Shown here piece after piece: positions 14,859 to 25,355 of a stretch of DNA of 64,000 nt. The notes below the pieces were generated by a model that ran no database searches, was not told the DNA's origin, and saw nothing but the letters and a program-made list of their open reading frames with translations. The stretch comes from Anaerolineaceae bacterium (GTDB lineage: Bacteria > Chloroflexota > Anaerolineae > Anaerolineales > Anaerolineaceae). The stretch lies in assembly GCA_016841365.1 (NCBI GenBank), contig JAENZI010000013.1, positions 1 to 64,000 of the forward strand. The letters run 5' to 3'. Every line of letters starts with the position of its first letter. Positions within the stretch are counted from its first letter, which is position 1. Both the position numbers and the translations under genes were made by a program.

Positions 14859-15779
14859 TTATGCGCGCGGTGTGATCACACGTAATACACCCTTTGCCAA
14901 ATTGATCCGGACCGGTGTTTTACCTTTTATATCGCCATCAGCCTGATAGGACATAGCATTCTCCGTTGAGATGCGGACACTTTCCTTAACCTGCCAATAG
15001 TGTATGTGCGGTGCTTTTCGGGGTTTCCCGGCGATGCGATAAAAAATTATCTGCAGGATATCCACCAGCGTTTTCGAGCGGATGGCATACAGATCTAAAA
15101 TCCCATCATCCCCTTTAATATCTGCATCGAATTCCTGGTCAATGATCCCAACATGACTGGTATTGAACACGGCAACTTCTGCCGCCAAGACGCGATGGGT
15201 TTGCCCATCGACCTCAAGTTCGACCCAAACCGGCTCCAACCCGATCCACTTCTTGATGATAGCAACAAGATAAGCCAGCCAGCCTAAACGATCCTTTTGA
15301 TCGCGGCTGACATCTTCAAAGGAGGAAGACAGGATCCCCAAACTGACCTCTAACAGGTAATATCGCCCCTCACATTCAACCGCATCCATCGTTTTTGTCG
15401 CAGTTCCGCTCAGAATGACCTCAAGCGCATCCGCCATATCGTTGGGGATGTCCATTTCGCCTGCAAACGCGTTGGCTGTACCCCCGGGTAAAATGCCAAA
15501 AGGAATTTTTGTGCCGGCGACGCCGTCCGCCACACCCGATATCGTGCCATCCCCGCCGCAGGCGACCACCAGGTCATAATCCTTTTCGAGCGCGTCCTGA
15601 ACGACCTGCTTCAAATCCTCCTCCCCCGTGGTTTCATATAAATCATAGGTCCAGCGACCCGCCGATTTTGCCTCAGAGAATAACCGCTTGGTCTCTTCAG
15701 GGTCGCCCTGCCCCGCAACCGGGTTCAAAACCACAAAGGCGTGCATATCTTTGTCAGAATGATTGTGTTGCGTGTTCAT
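14859..15779 (-). CDS. Diacylglycerol kinase-like lipid kinase (YegS/DagK/LCB5 family)
   Basis: 306 residues. The N-terminal catalytic domain has V-L-N-P-V-A-G-Q-G at its start and the nucleotide-binding C-G-G-D-G-T-I-S, followed by G-I-L-P-G-G-T-A-N-A-F-A. The C-terminal beta-sandwich has D-D-G-I-L-D-L (metal-linked) and Y-Q-A-D-G-D. These are family hallmarks; members phosphorylate diacylglycerol or other lipid alcohols at the membrane. A good GGAGGA precedes the ATG. Which lipid is used, and whether the role is turnover of phosphatidylglycerol-derived diacylglycerol, cannot be read from sequence. Confidence 0.9.
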   Translation of the reverse strand: MNTQHNHSDKDMHAFVVLNPVAGQGDPEETKRLFSEAKSAGRWTYDLYETTGEEDLKQVVQDALEKDYDLVVACGGDGTISGVADGVAGTKIPFGILPGGTANAFAGEMDIPNDMADALEVILSGTATKTMDAVECEGRYYLLEVSLGILSSSFEDVSRDQKDRLGWLAYLVAIIKKWIGLEPVWVELEVDGQTHRVLAAEVAVFNTSHVGIIDQEFDADIKGDDGILDLYAIRSKTLVDILQIIFYRIAGKPRKAPHIHYWQVKESVRISTENAMSYQADGDIKGKTPVRINLAKGVLRVITPRA

Positions 15780-17880: not shown

Positions 17881-17915
17881 AACAAAAAACTGATTCGCTT
17901 TGTGGAATCAGTTTT
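17881..17915 (-). terminator. Terminator after the sigma 1.1-like gene
   Basis: Arms 17905-17915 and 17886-17896 form a perfect 11-bp stem with an 8-base loop, followed on the minus strand by TTTTTTGTTTT. It is 28 bases after the stop of the small gene, which therefore has a defined transcript end. Confidence 0.88.
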
Positions 17916-17943: not shown

Positions 17944-18183
17944 TCAATCTCGGTCATCATCGTCCAGATGGTCCGCGTCCTCCCCAAAGGGGATATCGGC
18001 GCACAGCAATGCCGCAAAAACCCGCTCGATCTGGTCCATGCTATCCTCGGGGCAGGGATAGTAACGCAGGATATCTTCATAGGTGATGTAAGACTGCTGC
18101 CTGCCGAGTTGAAATAACTTTGCTATCGGCGAGATCTTTCGTGCGCTTTCTGAAGTGTTGGGTGCCTCAATTTCTTGATCCAT
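17944..18183 (-). CDS. Stand-alone sigma-70 region 1.1-like protein with acidic tail
   Basis: 79 residues. Residues about 18-76 align without gaps to residues about 19-77 of the RpoD encoded just upstream; by eye about 27 of 59 positions are identical (shared A-K-L-x-Q-L-G-R, D-I-L-R and E-D near the end). In RpoD this is the N-terminal region 1.1-like domain, which in characterised sigma factors occupies the RNA polymerase DNA channel and blocks free sigma from binding DNA. Here the domain is alone, with no region 2 or 4, and ends in an acidic tail (D-D-D-D-R-D). Domain plus acidic tail resembles the architecture of the Firmicutes delta subunit. The ATG at 18183 is chosen because GAAGAAGG lies five bases upstream. 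It is 203 bases downstream of rpoD, with its own candidate promoter and a strong terminator. Function unknown; an RNA polymerase regulator is inferred. Confidence 0.82.
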   Translation of the reverse strand: MDQEIEAPNTSESARKISPIAKLFQLGRQQSYITYEDILRYYPCPEDSMDQIERVFAALLCADIPFGEDADHLDDDDRD

Positions 18184-18249: not shown

Positions 18250-18255
18250 ATTATA
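18250..18255 (-). promoter_or_regulatory. Candidate -10 box for the sigma 1.1-like gene
   Basis: A perfect minus-strand TATAAT in a very AT-rich stretch between rpoD and the small gene, 66 bases before its start codon. No convincing -35 hexamer at 16-18 bases. Confidence 0.4.
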
Positions 18256-18386
18256 AGCATATTATTATTTAACGAAAACTTCAACCATTTTCGCCATCTG
18301 AATGACAAGATTCATCCAGCCAATCATCCCGGGAAATATATGATGTTGGCAAACTTCGTTCCAGATTTTGCGATTCAAGATTTTGC

Positions 18387-19613
18387 TTAAGAAAGGTAAT
18401 CACGCAGGCAGCGTTTAACAGATGGATGGCGCAGCCGCGAGAGTGCTTGCGCCTGGATTTGACGCACCCGCTCACGAGTCACACCCATCTTCTGGCCGAC
18501 TTCCTCCAGAGTATAGGATTGCCCATCCAACAAGCCAAAGCGCAACTGCAAAATACGCACCTCGCGTGAAGGCAGGTCTTCAAGCACAGCGATCAATTGC
18601 TCTTTGAGCAAATTCGTAGTCGCAGAATCATCTGGCTGTGGAATCTCATCATCCTCAATGAAATCTCCAAGTGTAGAATCGCCCTCATCATCGGTGGGCA
18701 GTTCCAATGATAACGGCCGCCGGGCAACCTGCAGCATATGCTCCACTTTTTCGGGCGTGACCTCCAGGGCTTCAGCCAGTTCTTCCAGGGTGGGTTTACG
18801 GTCAAACTGTTGGGTCAACTCATGCTGGATGCGCATCATTTTATTGATCTGGTCGCCCATATGCACGGGCACACGGATGGTGCGTCCCTGATCTGCCACC
18901 GCCCGCGAAATCGCCTGGCGGATCCACCAGGTGGCATAAGTGCTGAACTTATACCCCCTCCGGTATTCATACTTCTTGGTGGCACGCATCAGGCCGATGT
19001 TGCCTTCCTGGATCAGGTCGAGAAAGGGCACACCGCGGTTCATATATTTCTTCGCGACACTGATCACCAGCCGCGAATTGGCCGTGATCAAATGCTCCCG
19101 GGCTTTCCAGCCATCCTCCACCAGGCGCCGCAGCTCTACCCGTCGCCTCTCGTTGACGTTTCCCCGCGCCAGTTCCGCCCGTGCCATCCGGCCACTTTCA
19201 ATCCGTTGGGCAAGTTCAATCTCCTCCGCGGAAGTTAGCAGGGGCACACGGCTGACCTCTTTAAAGTAAAGACCAATGGTGTCTCTGGTTTCAATATTTT
19301 CCAGATCATCCGATGGTGCCGGTGTTTCGTTGTGATTAACCCCTTTACTTTTTTTCTTTTTGTCACGGGGGATCGCCCCCTGCGGTGGGTCTTCAAGCAA
19401 TTCCGAGTCCTCAACATAGGGAATACCTGCGCTGATCAACGCAGAAAATACAAATTCCAATTCCTCCACACGCTGTTCCGCATCCGGGAAAAACCGGAGG
19501 ATGTCAGACGTGCTCACAAAGGATTTTTTGCGGCCTAATTGGATCAATTTGGCAACAGACGAAGCGGATTGCGCCCCTTCGAGTGCTACCCCCTGTTTCT
19601 TTGTTTTACCCAT
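18387..19613 (-). CDS. rpoD: Primary RNA polymerase sigma factor (sigma-70)
   Basis: 408 residues. Regions in order: a compact region 1.1-like domain (about 19-77), a Lys-rich linker, region 1.2 (D-T-I-G-L-Y-F-K-E-V and A-Q-R-I-E), region 2 with the promoter-recognition signature D-L-I-Q-E-G-N-I-G-L and T-Y-A-T-W-W-I-R-Q-A-I, region 3 (I-R-V-P-V-H-M), and region 4 with the helix-turn-helix T-L-E-E-V-G-Q-K-M-G-V-T-R-E-R-V-R-Q-I. All core and DNA-binding elements are intact, so this is a housekeeping sigma. AAAGGA lies upstream of the ATG. The region 1.1-like domain is duplicated in the small gene downstream. Some chloroflexi carry more than one RpoD-type sigma, so it may not be the only one. 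Confidence 0.97.
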   Translation of the reverse strand: MGKTKKQGVALEGAQSASSVAKLIQLGRKKSFVSTSDILRFFPDAEQRVEELEFVFSALISAGIPYVEDSELLEDPPQGAIPRDKKKKSKGVNHNETPAPSDDLENIETRDTIGLYFKEVSRVPLLTSAEEIELAQRIESGRMARAELARGNVNERRRVELRRLVEDGWKAREHLITANSRLVISVAKKYMNRGVPFLDLIQEGNIGLMRATKKYEYRRGYKFSTYATWWIRQAISRAVADQGRTIRVPVHMGDQINKMMRIQHELTQQFDRKPTLEELAEALEVTPEKVEHMLQVARRPLSLELPTDDEGDSTLGDFIEDDEIPQPDDSATTNLLKEQLIAVLEDLPSREVRILQLRFGLLDGQSYTLEEVGQKMGVTRERVRQIQAQALSRLRHPSVKRCLRDYLS

Positions 19614-19827
19614 GGAATCCTTTCAATTGATGCCAGGTGTGCTTGGTATGAAATTTGGTCCCCAATCGTACGTCTACATATGACCCACAAAACGCATCTG
19701 GGGAGAATTTTATGATCATCACATATATGAGGATATTATTTTTTAAGCAAAATATCAACCATTTGCTAAAACTGACTGCAAAAAACATCAGGAAATCGAG
19801 ACATATGACATCTTTTAAAAGCAATTT

Positions 19828-20989: not shown

Positions 20990-21637
20990 TCACTCTTGTT
21001 CCGCATCCCCAGCCTTTTCTCGGGGGAAGTAAACCGCCATCCGATCGCCAAAGTCCTGAATATAGAGACCTTTGGGCTTGAGCAGCAACCAGAAAAAAGC
21101 ATAAAGGTCACCAACTGCACCTGAGGCATTCATCGTGACCAGTAACAAAATCGGTAAAACCCAAGCCGACGGCAAGATCAACATCAGTCCAAACCCAACA
21201 ACTGAGATAACTACCAGCGGCGCCAGACTGATGATCAGATAAGCCGGTTTTGGGATAAACCAGTCAGGCGCAGCAGCATAGGCATAAAAGCCGCGAAAAC
21301 CAAACTTTGGTCGTCCACCCGTAAAAAGCCAAAAGAACAAGCCGTGAATAGCCTCATGCAAAAAGATCATCCCTACAATCACACTGATCAAGATTATTAT
21401 GGTAACAAGAAAAGTTCCTGACAAATATCCTGAAAATAATCCATCCAAAGGGTCTGTAAACAGTGAGGGACGTATAAGCTGCAGGAATTTAAAAGATAGC
21501 AACACTGAACCTGCAAACATCCCCAAGCTGGCAATGTTCAGTGCGATGGCAAGTTTGATATCCTTGGCAAGGTTTAAATTTGCACTTAATTGATAAGTGC
21601 CTGGCAACACTTGCATGGGTCGTTGAGTTTCAGTCAT
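20990..21637 (-). CDS. DUF3267-type membrane zincin (putative metalloprotease)
   Basis: 215 residues with about four hydrophobic segments. The zinc motif H94-E-A-I-H98 lies in a membrane-proximal helix, followed by F-W-L-F-T-G-G-R-P and F-R-G-F-Y-A-Y-A-A-A-P; a later N-A-S-G-A-V-G-D could supply the third ligand. This layout matches DUF3267 proteins, thought to be integral-membrane zincins. I chose the ATG at 21637, seven bases after the stop of its paralogue; the frame is open further upstream only because it overlaps that gene. The substrate is unknown. The pairing with a motif-less paralogue is described among the findings. Confidence 0.85.
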   Translation of the reverse strand: MTETQRPMQVLPGTYQLSANLNLAKDIKLAIALNIASLGMFAGSVLLSFKFLQLIRPSLFTDPLDGLFSGYLSGTFLVTIIILISVIVGMIFLHEAIHGLFFWLFTGGRPKFGFRGFYAYAAAPDWFIPKPAYLIISLAPLVVISVVGFGLMLILPSAWVLPILLLVTMNASGAVGDLYAFFWLLLKPKGLYIQDFGDRMAVYFPREKAGDAEQE

Positions 21638-21644
21638 GCCAATC

Positions 21645-22271
21645 TTATCCCTCATCATTTGCTTGGGCATGGTACACACGAATGCCATCGCCATAGTCCA
21701 GCACGAGCGAGCCATTTGGTTTGCGCATCGCCCACCACACCATGGCTGCATCGCTGAGGGCTGCTGCCAGGTTGAGCGAAACCAGCAGCAACACACCGGG
21801 CACCAGGTTGAGCGGCACCACCATCACCGCCAATACACCCAAAACCGTGATCAAGATCGCCGGCGTCAGCCGGATGGCAGCGTAAAGATTTCTTGTTAGA
21901 TACCATTCAGGTGCTGCGGCATAAGTATAAAAGCCTCTAAATCCTACGCTTGGACGCTGGCCTGTGAACACCCAAAACAATACCCAGCGCATGCCTTCGT
22001 TCAAAACGATCATCAGCCCGACCGAAAGCACCAGCAGCAATACCCCGCGCCAAAATTCCCGCATCCCGGTGATAATCAGGATGTTCTCCTCTGCGAGATA
22101 CGCCGGACGCAGCACCGCCAGGCTTTTTACCAGCAGCCAGCCGACGCCAAACAACACGCCAATCCCCGCCAAGTTCAAGATCATTCCCCATCCCCGGTTC
22201 TCGTTCAAATCCAGTTTTCCAATCTGACGGTAATTTTCCGGTAAATCTTGCGTTGCTCTAAATTTGCTCAT
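21645..22271 (-). CDS. DUF3267-like paralogue lacking the zinc motif (pseudo-protease)
   Basis: 208 residues, clearly paralogous to the zincin encoded immediately downstream: both share F-W-V/L-F-T-G-x-R-P, G-F-R-G-F-Y-x-Y-A-A-A-P and a C-terminal D-Y/F-G-D. At the place of H-E-A-I-H it reads N91-E-G-M-R95, so both zinc-binding histidines are gone while the glutamate remains. The aspartate of the putative third-ligand segment is retained. The protein is intact, of normal length and has a purine-rich ribosome site, so it is not a decaying pseudogene. A role as regulatory or structural partner of the active paralogue is inferred. Confidence 0.8.
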   Translation of the reverse strand: MSKFRATQDLPENYRQIGKLDLNENRGWGMILNLAGIGVLFGVGWLLVKSLAVLRPAYLAEENILIITGMREFWRGVLLLVLSVGLMIVLNEGMRWVLFWVFTGQRPSVGFRGFYTYAAAPEWYLTRNLYAAIRLTPAILITVLGVLAVMVVPLNLVPGVLLLVSLNLAAALSDAAMVWWAMRKPNGSLVLDYGDGIRVYHAQANDEG

Positions 22272-22347
22272 CCTTACTTTCCACTCCTCTCAAGCCCACA
22301 TCGTCCCCAAATTTAATCTCCATCAGCCAACAAATTGGGGCACAGCC

Positions 22348-23466
22348 TCACTCGACGACGGTATTGGTCGGCCAGGGCGTGCTGGTCTCAACGGCACTCG
22401 TGGCCGAGTCTGTTCCCGCGTTTTCTGCTGGGAGGGTCATGCTTGGTTCAGGGGATGGCGGTGGCTGGGTCTCTGTCGCGGCAAATGGCGCTGTCCAGCT
22501 TGCCTGTGGCGATGGCGATACCTCTGTCAAATTCCGAAAGGCAGCTCCATTCCTCAGATAAACATAAACCAGCAAAACAAACACTAAAAGCAGGATTGCC
22601 AGACAGCCCAGTCGCCTGCGGCGCTTTTTCAGGTCAGCAACTGCCCTTTGTGCCTCTGCTAGGGGCATTTGCATCAACACCAGTGTCACGTTGTCATGCC
22701 CGCCGCGCTGGTTAGCCATGTCGATCAGCACCTGCGGGGCGTCCTCCAGGGATTTTGTCTGGATCACCTCGCGGATTTCATCATCTTGCACCAAGTCCGT
22801 TATACCGTCACTGCACAGCAATAAGATGTCGCCAGGCAAGAGCTTTGCGCCCTGGTTATCAAGCGCATCCGCCTCGCTTTCACCCTCGAACAGCCACATC
22901 CTGAAATCCGGTTTTGGTGTCTGTTGAGAGCCCAAGTAGCGCCGGATGATATGCGCGTTGGGGTGGTCTACCGCCTCATCTTCTGTCAGCATCCCTGCAT
23001 CATAAGCCTCCTGCAGCCAGGTATGATCTGTGGATAATTGGATCAGGTGCCCTTGACGCAAGAGGTAAATGCGTGAATCGCCCAAATTAGCCGTGAACAA
23101 CCTGTCGCCAATCACCCAGGCACAGGCGCAAGTCGTCCCCATCCCCTTCCGACCCTTTTCCGTCAATGAGGCACGAAAAATTTCGTTGCTGGCGCGGGCA
23201 ACCGCCTTCTCCATCGCTGCCAGCGGCTGGCGTCCATCACTGGCTGTCAGCTCTTCCGTGAGGATCGACACCCCCATCTCCGCCGCCACCTCACCTGCGC
23301 GATGCCCGCCAATGCCGTCACATAACACAGCCAGAACCGATGGCGTTTTCCGATCGGGTCCCGTGCGGAATGCCGCCACCCGGTAGCGGTCTTCGTTCTG
23401 CTTTCCTGTCCGACCGGGGTGACTTGCTGCTTTAAACTTCAAATGAGTACGGTTTTCTTCGGTCAT
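22348..23466 (-). CDS. PP2C-type protein Ser/Thr phosphatase with transmembrane segment
   Basis: 372 residues. The catalytic domain (about 8-258) holds N-E25-D26-R, C-D50-G-I-G-G-H-x-A-G-E, N-L-G-D-S-R, C-S-D-G-I-T-D-L and H-D-N-V-T-L, i.e. the metal-binding aspartates of PPM/PrpC/Stp phosphatases. A K-K-R-R-R-R stretch precedes one transmembrane helix (about 283-301), then a Pro/Ser/Thr-rich tail of about 65 residues outside the cell. It reverses Ser/Thr phosphorylation in the cytoplasm. Its ATG overlaps the stop of the FHA protein gene (ATGA), so the two are coupled. No Hanks-type kinase gene is in the window. Confidence 0.93.
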   Translation of the reverse strand: MTEENRTHLKFKAASHPGRTGKQNEDRYRVAAFRTGPDRKTPSVLAVLCDGIGGHRAGEVAAEMGVSILTEELTASDGRQPLAAMEKAVARASNEIFRASLTEKGRKGMGTTCACAWVIGDRLFTANLGDSRIYLLRQGHLIQLSTDHTWLQEAYDAGMLTEDEAVDHPNAHIIRRYLGSQQTPKPDFRMWLFEGESEADALDNQGAKLLPGDILLLCSDGITDLVQDDEIREVIQTKSLEDAPQVLIDMANQRGGHDNVTLVLMQMPLAEAQRAVADLKKRRRRLGCLAILLLVFVLLVYVYLRNGAAFRNLTEVSPSPQASWTAPFAATETQPPPSPEPSMTLPAENAGTDSATSAVETSTPWPTNTVVE

Positions 23467-25355
23467 AAGATGGGGTGATATTTCGAGACGTTAACTTTCT
23501 GATGGGTGTCACTGTCTACCATTGTAAACCGAAATCCCAATTCCCCAAAATGGATCAGATCGCCATGCTCGATCTGGACAGGGCGGCGACCTACTCGTTG
23601 ATAGTTCACCCAGGTTCCGCCCGATGACCCCATATCCAGCAGCCAGGTAAGGCCTTCCCAATGCTGGATGATGGCTGAGGTTTGGGCAATACCCGATCCT
23701 TCCAAAACCAGGTCAGTCTGATCAGGGTCACGACCTACGACAACCCGAGGTTGTGAGATTTTGAAAGTTTGTGACGAATCATCGACCCCAAGCATGCCTA
23801 AAGGAATCAATATCGCATAAGCCTGCTTAGCGGATGGTGTAAGAGTCACCCGATCTTGCGAAGGTTGTGTTGTCAGGCTGGAGAGAGTCTTCCGAATTCT
23901 TTTTGACACAGGCGATTTCCAACCTCGCCTTCCCAGCCAGATCAGCAGTATAAGGACGGCGACAGACATCATCGCGATCACGCCAAATAAAACCTTGCGG
24001 CCAAGGTTCGTGTCTGCATCGGGTTCAGATGCCGCCACTTCAATCCGCACAGGCGTCAGGATTGTGCGCCCGGTTAGTCCGATCTCATCAACAACCTCCA
24101 CCTGGATCTGGTGTTCGCCGGCCTGGTCAAAACCGTTCAAGTCCCATGTCAGTGACTCAAAAGGCGGCTGGTCGCTTTCTGCCACAACCTCCCCATCCAC
24201 CAGCAGACGGCTGGTGGATATTTCCCGCAAATGCTCATCGGCATATTCGACCAGATATTGAATATCGATTGCACCGGGAGTTAGCGTCTCCCCATCCGAC
24301 AGAATTTCTCGGTTGATCACCGCCGGGGGTGAAATCAAGATCGGCTCGGGCGGAAACACTTCAATATACAACGAGGTGCTTTCACCCCTTATGACGCCCT
24401 CCGATAGGGCAAGCTCAACTGCTAAAGGATAGGTGCCCGTCTCGCGGATGCCAGACCGATAGGTCAGTGTATAAGAGAAGCCCAGCGAATCCAAATAGGT
24501 TTCTGGGTCCGGCAGGGGTTCTTCACTGCCCACATAAAAGAAATCCCCGCCTGTGATATCAGCCAGGTCGAACAATGCTTGTCCCTGAGCATTATCTAAG
24601 AACAATGCATCGCCGACCATCCACACATTCACCTGCACGCCGGCTGCACGCGCTTCTTCCGTCAGCCCATATAATGTTGAAATTTGATCTGCCAGTGGCG
24701 GTACCGTCAGATACAAAACCACCTTATCTGCCCCAAAGGGAACCACACGCTCGGCTGCAGACCGAATGGCGGTTTCAAGGCTGGAAAGATCCGGTGTCAT
24801 CGACCTGAAATTCGGCTGATAAGCTGTAAATGCCGTCAGCCATGGGTCAGAGGATTGTAAATTCCGCACGAGTGTGCCCTCGGTCGTGATCAATGACCAG
24901 GAATCTTGTGGCGCAAACTGCCTGCGTGACGCCCAATCCGCCAATGCTGCAGATATTTGCTGGTAAACAGAAACACCTTCGGCATCCCGCAGATCAAAGT
25001 CACGCGCGCCGTTGATCGCTAAGGAAAACAACACCCCCACCTGGTGCTCCTCCAGGGCAATCAACTCCACCTCCGAATCACCCTCTAAAACCGTCAATCG
25101 CTCGCGCGTCACCTGCAGTCCTTCATCCTCCAATCCGGACGGGAGCTTGAATTGGATGGTAATCTCTGGGAAGTCGGAAATATCAGGCGCCTGTAATAGA
25201 ATACTGCCCGAGATCTGCGCCGATACTTGCTTAAATTCAAAACCCCAAAAGGCGGTGCCCAGGTAAACAGACAGCACAAAAATGACCCCCAAAACCTGCA
25301 TGCCAAAAGCGAGCTTCTGGCGGTGGCGCGTGAACCAATTTTTATTTTTAGGCAT
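23463..25355 (-). CDS. Transenvelope protein: VWA-like extracytoplasmic region, TM, cytoplasmic FHA domain
   Basis: 630 residues. A first helix lies at about 15-36. The extracytoplasmic part has a VWA-like Rossmann region (V-G-V-L-F-S-L-A-I-N-G at the first strand, about 75-290, with A-D-K-V-V-L-Y-L-T and I-T-G-G-D-F-F-Y) and then Ig-like strands with Y-x-L-x-Y-R-S-G. A second helix at about 455-473 leads to a basic stretch and a C-terminal FHA domain (V-V-V-G-R-D-P-D, about 535-615, with D-M-G-S-S-G-G-T-W-V-N). The usual S-x-x-H of FHA is changed to Q-T-S-A. The VWA metal site D-x-S-x-S appears as S-L-A-I-N, so metal binding is doubtful. It is followed by, and coupled to, the PP2C gene. Confidence 0.82.
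   Translation of the reverse strand: MPKNKNWFTRHRQKLAFGMQVLGVIFVLSVYLGTAFWGFEFKQVSAQISGSILLQAPDISDFPEITIQFKLPSGLEDEGLQVTRERLTVLEGDSEVELIALEEHQVGVLFSLAINGARDFDLRDAEGVSVYQQISAALADWASRRQFAPQDSWSLITTEGTLVRNLQSSDPWLTAFTAYQPNFRSMTPDLSSLETAIRSAAERVVPFGADKVVLYLTVPPLADQISTLYGLTEEARAAGVQVNVWMVGDALFLDNAQGQALFDLADITGGDFFYVGSEEPLPDPETYLDSLGFSYTLTYRSGIRETGTYPLAVELALSEGVIRGESTSLYIEVFPPEPILISPPAVINREILSDGETLTPGAIDIQYLVEYADEHLREISTSRLLVDGEVVAESDQPPFESLTWDLNGFDQAGEHQIQVEVVDEIGLTGRTILTPVRIEVAASEPDADTNLGRKVLFGVIAMMSVAVLILLIWLGRRGWKSPVSKRIRKTLSSLTTQPSQDRVTLTPSAKQAYAILIPLGMLGVDDSSQTFKISQPRVVVGRDPDQTDLVLEGSGIAQTSAIIQHWEGLTWLLDMGSSGGTWVNYQRVGRRPVQIEHGDLIHFGELGFRFTMVDSDTHQKVNVSKYHPIL

Follow-up and report, generated by a model that had tools for sequence, protein, structure and literature searches.

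A 64,000-nucleotide (nt) stretch of DNA from an Anaerolineaceae bacterium (contig JAENZI010000013.1 of assembly GCA_016841365.1; hereafter the window) encodes, at positions 17944..18183 on the minus strand, a 79-residue protein that consists solely of a sigma region 1.1 domain. We refer to this stand-alone region 1.1 gene as SA and to the window's own genome as G000; the host genus is probably Brevefilum. Our preferred hypothesis, to which we assign a probability of roughly one half, is that SA arose by duplication of the 5' end of rpoD, has been kept by selection, and acts in trans on RNA polymerase. The assignment of the gene draws on its open reading frame (ORF), a match to PF03979, conservation in the genus, the ratio of nonsynonymous (dN) to synonymous (dS) change, and the predicted fold.

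A gene for region 1.1 alone

The ORF was found where an earlier note on this DNA had drawn it, with two start options, the ATG at 18183 (79 amino acids, aa) and an upstream TTG (84 aa). As that note had described, the product aligns without gaps to the N-terminal domain of the sigma factor encoded just upstream (18387-19613, called rpoD2 below). Across residues 12-75 of that sigma, 29 of 64 positions are identical and 48 of 64 similar (BLASTP, E 2e-19), and the alignment score is 157 compared with a maximum of 61 for 2000 shuffles of the SA protein. Sigma70_r1_1 (PF03979) is the sole Pfam match of SA at E up to 1 (28.5 bits, cut-off 22.5), and it is likewise the one family matched by all 13 members from the genus (E up to 0.01). 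The SA profile matches the sigma 1.1 profile with 99.8% probability across 74 columns. The ORF stops after region 1.1; the linker between 1.1 and 1.2 and regions 1.2 to 4 are missing, including regions 2 and 4 of a group 1 sigma, in agreement with the earlier view that no further sigma region is present. All 13 SA proteins are acidic (isoelectric point 4.1 to 5.0) and short, with listed lengths of 68 to 103 aa that leave little sequence beyond the domain. The acidic tail that had been pointed out is real in the window protein, which has eight aspartate or glutamate residues within its last 15, but it is not conserved: the number ranges from one to eight across the 13 members, being one to five in 12 of them and one in G011.

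The predicted fold appears compatible with sigma region 1.1. The AlphaFold model has a mean predicted local distance difference test score (pLDDT) of 78.6, with 46 of the 79 residues at 90 or more, block means of 86 to 93 over residues 21-70, and helices at residues 19-30, 35-41, 45-61, and 70-74. Its top four Foldseek matches are all primary sigma factor entries, 2k6x, 9a58 (an integrative SigA-RpoC model), 6n4c_F, and 6pss_L, with E values of 0.15 to 5.1; the best, 2k6x (region 1.1 of T. maritima), is weak at E 0.15, as is the superposition on 6pss_L (Z 5.5, 59 aligned residues, root-mean-square deviation 3.9). The best VIA Z score for SA is 5.9. The genuine RpoD region 1.1, run through the identical pipeline as a control, gave about equal scores, with a best Foldseek E of 0.46 and a best VIA Z of 6.5; the best unrelated rows in the two runs reached 4.2 and 3.3.

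Of the 16 genomes analyzed from the genus, 13 (G000, G002-G008, G011-G015) carry a single intact copy of SA, among them six of the eight with completeness of 90% or more and contamination of 5% or less. SA was not found in G001 (66% complete), G009 (96%), or G010 (95%). In G008, a further short frame is the beginning of an rpoD gene that runs into a contig end. The earlier proposal implied that intact homologs exist, and the frame is indeed undisrupted in all 13 members.

Synonymous change in the closest SA pairs is far above amino-acid change. In the 55-codon core of the G006, G008, and G012 genes there are 8 to 11 nucleotide differences, of which 7 to 9 lie at third positions and 0 to 2 alter an amino acid, corresponding to a dN of 0 to 0.016 and a dS of 0.26 to 0.30. 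Six other pairs show a dN of 0.11 to 0.22 and a dS of 0.65 to 2.1, the latter partly near saturation. Ten pairs were compared, none of them with G002, G003, or G013, and the dS of the pair G000/G015 was not computable. SA is thus apparently kept by selection. The family also has residues of its own, as judged against a set of sigmas from which two distant rows and the partly masked row of G001 were left out: D53 occurs in 12 of 13 SA proteins, compared with E53 in 29 of 30 sigmas; R54 occurs in 11 of 13 compared with none of 30; and P45 and G67, each found in 10 of 13, are missing from most sigmas.

Descent and promoter of SA

SA is probably the product of a partial duplication of rpoD, as the earlier note had suggested for this lineage of Chloroflexota, and the promoter was probably copied with it; the grounds are the region 1.1 tree and the promoter that SA has in common with rpoD. 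In the tree (45 rows, 55 columns), the sigmas of the genus and 12 of the 13 SA sequences form one group (support 91/98) apart from the sigmas of other genera, and 11 SA sequences form a clade within it (90/94). The SA of G003 lies inside the genus group and outside the 11-member clade, and that of G002 lies outside both; both are long-branched. Well apart from all of these are two distant sigma rows, of which one is from G000. In an approximately unbiased (AU) test, a single clade of all 13 SA sequences was not rejected (p-AU 0.70), the constrained tree being slightly better. Upstream of the G002 gene we find the 13-mer AATAATATGCTTA, which favors common descent for this member; nothing similar is found for G003. 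The data suit one partial duplication of the rpoD gene of the genus without proving a single event.

The candidate promoter of SA lies at 18254..18284 on the minus strand and consists of TTGAAG (18284-18279), a 17-nt spacer, and TATGCT (18261-18256). A whole-genome pattern search placed the same 31-nt pattern, with zero mismatches, before rpoD2 (19728..19758, minus strand) and before rpoD on another contig (G000:C17:11152-11182). When both strands of 629,666 bases of DNA from the genus are searched, the 13-mer occurs six times in all, each time before an SA gene and in three kinds of locus; allowing one mismatch adds one site, likewise before an SA gene. When this DNA was scanned with a matrix built from nine SA promoters, ten SA sites ranked first, followed by 14 rpoD or rpoD2 sites (30.3 to 19.1). 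Sites of other kinds scored at most 15.8, which exceeds the values for rpoD in G001 (15.6) and G003 (13.5), and the leave-one-out scores of the nine training promoters were 20.4 to 36.3.

The DNA used for the 13-mer and matrix scans is biased toward SA and sigma loci, and for this reason the whole of the 2.86-Mb own genome was searched. With up to three mismatches allowed, TTGAWDTTTTNNNNAAWWAATARTATNCTYA has three sites there, before SA, rpoD2, and rpoD. This pattern was built from such sites, so the zero mismatches follow by construction and it is the absence of further sites that constitutes the result. Across the 16 genomes of the genus there are 22 sites, 10 before rpoD, five before rpoD2, seven before SA, and none elsewhere. 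The reversed pattern has no site in the own genome or in these 16, and the 31-nt pattern has none in 40 shuffles of the genus DNA. In the 131 other genomes of the family there are 16 sites, of which seven precede a sigma bearing region 1.1 and the remaining nine are about as many as the seven of the reversed pattern. Its occurrence before rpoD, rpoD2, SA, and sigmas of other genera suggests that the pattern is an ancient rpoD promoter carried along with SA. Conservation thus supports the suggestion that SA has a promoter of its own, although a generic scan for consensus promoters (two found, 1.8 expected from shuffles) did not list the site. We reject a generic vegetative promoter, given that there are just three sites in 2.86 Mb at up to three mismatches. 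As a separate observation, the rpoD promoter itself is unusually conserved, parts of its spacer included, also in seven genomes of other genera.

These results bear directly on the possibility that SA is a selfish or decaying fragment, that is, a functionless truncated duplicate still translated through a retained rpoD promoter. The varying location of the gene, the long branches of several SA rows, and its absence from G009 and G010 would all fit such a fragment. We nevertheless regard this explanation as improbable: the frame is intact in every member, amino-acid change is far below synonymous change in the closest pairs, the family has conserved residues of its own, the promoter has been retained in different loci, and no remnant of a sigma lies beside SA. 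A pseudogene remnant of a whole rpoD copy was likewise considered and rejected, since there is no sigma core beside SA in any of the eight loci that are without rpoD2.

Proposed action and its rivals

We infer a trans-acting effect of SA on RNA polymerase, along with its expression and binding, from the genomic data described here and from published work on related proteins. In the accessible parts of that literature, region 1.1 is described as compacting free sigma and as a channel-filling mimic of DNA that must move for open-complex formation (PMC4598750, PMC2613000), and isolated E. coli region 1.1 supplied in trans raised the inhibition by Gp2 of a holoenzyme lacking 1.1 and of the sigma-38 holoenzyme (PMC3778932). 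Taken together with what is reported for Gp2 and delta (see below), and with the rpoD promoter on SA, this makes action in trans on the polymerase the most plausible role.

We hypothesize that in an ancestor of the genus the 5' end of an rpoD gene, comprising its promoter and region 1.1 without regions 1.2 to 4, was duplicated, and that the copy, now at different places in the chromosome and mostly with an rpoD-type promoter, would have been kept by selection. SA would probably be made in step with the RpoD and RpoD2 sigma factors, because its promoter otherwise precedes only their genes in the own genome. The protein may bind in the main channel, at the downstream-DNA site taken up by sigma 1.1 in the holoenzyme, or compete for that site, and may thereby set the threshold for open-complex formation, the likeliest target being polymerase that carries a sigma without a 1.1 of its own. 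As SA has no conserved acidic tail, any entry into the channel would be as a globular domain.

A number of observations weigh against this hypothesis. The structure matches of SA are weak in absolute terms (Z under 8), and the strict promoter pattern precedes only 7 of the 13 SA genes, those of G003, G005, and G011 having no clear copy even by the looser matrix. The positions of the G002 and G003 sequences outside the main SA clade leave room for a repeated origin. The absence of SA from G009 and G010, which are 95-96% complete, indicates that it is not essential throughout the genus. Each of the three sigma-A-type factors found in the own genome carries its own region 1.1, so that a free copy might be redundant or a decoy; the third of these, at L082 (G000:C13), is a distant sigma of 390 aa. 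Finally, isolated region 1.1 was used at about 8-fold excess, where this is stated, and together with Gp2, and the available portions of PMC3778932 contain no effect of 1.1 alone.

The promoter common to SA, rpoD2, and rpoD would also be expected if SA were an anti-sigma factor in a negative feedback loop, binding free RpoD or RpoD2 and copying the intramolecular role of region 1.1 in compacting sigma and masking its DNA-binding regions. We consider this unlikely, as a free copy should lose out to the 1.1 that each target sigma carries in cis. Moreover, there is no rpoD2 match in G011, G013, or G014 (92 to 98% complete), all of which have SA, and therefore SA is not a dedicated partner of rpoD2.

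More tentatively, and with somewhat less confidence than we place in the hypothesis of action in trans on the polymerase, SA could represent a new class of small RNA polymerase regulator in which the auto-inhibitory domain of a primary sigma factor has become a gene in its own right while retaining the promoter exclusive to the sigma gene. In that case, cells would make a brake in proportion to sigma, and open-complex formation, or the activity of holoenzymes lacking 1.1, could be tuned in trans. Within primary sigma factors, region 1.1 is the part known to gate the channel of the polymerase, and in the literature accessible to us its activity in trans has so far been described with purified fragments only. 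A natural, selected, stand-alone 1.1 with the promoter of a sigma gene would in effect be an experiment of evolution on this gate, would point to a way in which small polymerase subunits could arise, and would be directly testable in vitro.

Genomic setting and comparison with known systems

The sigma gene adjacent to SA had been taken for rpoD itself. Judged by Pfam, tree, and alignment, it encodes a second full-length sigma-A-type factor of 408 aa (18387..19613, minus strand). In a 29-row tree of regions 1.2 to 4, whose bootstrap had not fully settled, this factor belongs to a five-row clade (G000, G006, G008, G012, and G015; support 97/99), and its branch is longer than that of the rpoD on contig C17. 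By this phylogenetic placement, it is a lineage-specific paralog, which we name rpoD2, and the conserved rpoD is the gene on C17. The latter adjoins a phosphofructokinase-like gene (named by eye) in five of the eight rpoD loci seen, and by eye RpoD2 is close to RpoD in regions 2.4 and 4.2. The five genomes of the clade are also precisely those in which SA directly follows rpoD2; in the other eight it lies elsewhere. The expectation that it would stay next to rpoD thus does not hold, since its neighbor in the 5 of 13 cases is the paralog.

Further genes accompany rpoD2. A PP2C-type phosphatase gene (22348..23466, minus strand; Pfam and synteny) is found upstream in all five rpoD2 loci, and a gene for an FHA-domain protein in four of the five, the G008 locus ending before it; in the window this region spans 20990-25355. 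Two overlapping DUF3267 frames (putative zincin peptidase; 20990-22271, minus strand) lie between rpoD2 and the phosphatase gene. A diacylglycerol-kinase-like gene (14859..15779, minus strand; Pfam and synteny) is found directly beyond SA in G006, G008, and G012, and a GH3 gene intervenes in the window. The strong terminator attributed to SA is a plausible candidate intrinsic terminator at 17886..17915 on the minus strand, with an 11-pair stem, a T-rich tail, and an RNA folding z of -2.82; the terminator scan, on the other hand, found one site where 0.9 were expected.

In seven of the eight genomes where SA is not next to rpoD2 (loci L038, L040, L041, L042, L043, L044, and L045), it lies near hcp, a SufE-FeS pair, or a Dps-like gene, which hints at redox stress; these names and that of tatC were assigned by eye, without a family search. 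The hcp gene is near SA in four of the eight (G004, G005, G011, and G014), the SufE-FeS pair in three (G004, G007, and G013, so that one genome has both), and the Dps-like gene in one (G002); the eighth genome, G003, has a tatC-like gene nearby. Such neighbors would be consistent with the recruitment of SA to a non-polymerase partner in stress physiology, with region 1.1 being merely a protein-binding module, as would the region 1.1-like domains in giant proteins of other Chloroflexota described below. This too seems a poor prospect. The genes hcp and SufE-FeS are found without an adjacent SA in G000, G006, and G010, and the link is therefore not obligate, while the rpoD promoter of SA argues for a role in transcription.

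Outside the genus, a 13-member profile was run against the 131 other genomes of the family, with matches listed to near E 3e-6, a level much weaker than that of SA or of the sigmas of the genus. Among the matches listed, the one frame shorter than 200 aa is that of G131 (122 aa), which, like one of 215 aa in G092, is cut by a contig end. A single-sequence SA query gave no short frame in 45 relatives that belong to other genera. One conserved stretch was also scanned against 84,980 species genomes; this search, which is insensitive to divergent copies, yielded 10 loci, all from this genus. A survey of the class listed matches to E 5e-8, a level at which SA itself (4.4e-6) would not appear, and is thus not negative evidence for stand-alone genes. 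No match to SA was seen in the phage records or viral contigs searched with single-sequence queries, by which divergent copies could be missed, and in a PHROGs scan 12 of the 13 members match only a sigma-factor family; with the same limit on sensitivity, we reject a phage or plasmid origin.

Across 91 genomes of the phylum, the listed matches included one further short frame, of 126 aa in G319. The locus (L084:1910-2212) encodes a 100-aa protein that begins with a proline-rich stretch and contains a region 1.1 (29.2 bits), and no sigma was seen among the ORFs of its 4.5 kb. When the 32 genomes of its family were searched, no short frame appeared in the three genus mates of G319 (58 to 86% complete), so the G319 frame is perhaps a remnant; five other frames shorter than 200 aa occur in five genomes of that family (G368, G377, G378, G383, and G387). 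In two further families of Chloroflexota, a region 1.1-like domain lies within very long proteins (frames up to 2099 aa; L085:3611-9907, L086, L087, and L089). The L085 protein combines tetratricopeptide repeats with PF03979 at 26.6 bits in Pfam, and the other three were judged by inspection.

The earlier note knew of no description of such a gene, and we likewise found no report of a stand-alone region 1.1 gene in the open-access full text available. It had also likened SA to the delta subunit (RpoE) of Bacillota, which is likewise small and acidic. According to the accessible text of PMC7749165, delta resembles sigma 1.1 over its first ~70 residues, but this N-terminal domain is bound between the shelf and the jaw of beta-prime; residues 91-173 form a disordered acidic C-terminal region of net charge -47, and this tail can enter the channel. 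SA, by comparison, ends after the domain, has no conserved tail, and matches RpoD/SigA in sequence. Among the 30 PDB sequences matched by SA at E up to 1, 23 are sigma factors and none is a delta chain; nor does a delta chain appear in the fold listings, and in either kind of listing an absent row excludes nothing. We therefore find the identification of SA as a delta-like protein with an acidic tail unsupported.

T7 Gp2 resembles SA in being a small protein that, in the parts of PMC3778932 we could consult, works at the beta-prime jaw next to sigma 1.1. However, Gp2 is a phage inhibitor that uses sigma 1.1, whereas SA is chromosomal and is itself a region 1.1. Like anti-sigma factors, SA is possibly a sigma-directed regulator made with its sigma; unlike them, it is a piece of sigma itself, with Sigma70_r1_1 as its only Pfam match. 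The closest comparison remains region 1.1 of sigma-70 (PF03979), with which SA shares the same domain across its length, an apparently compatible predicted fold, an acidic character, and the promoter of rpoD, and from which it differs in being encoded alone and in carrying family residues such as D53 and R54.
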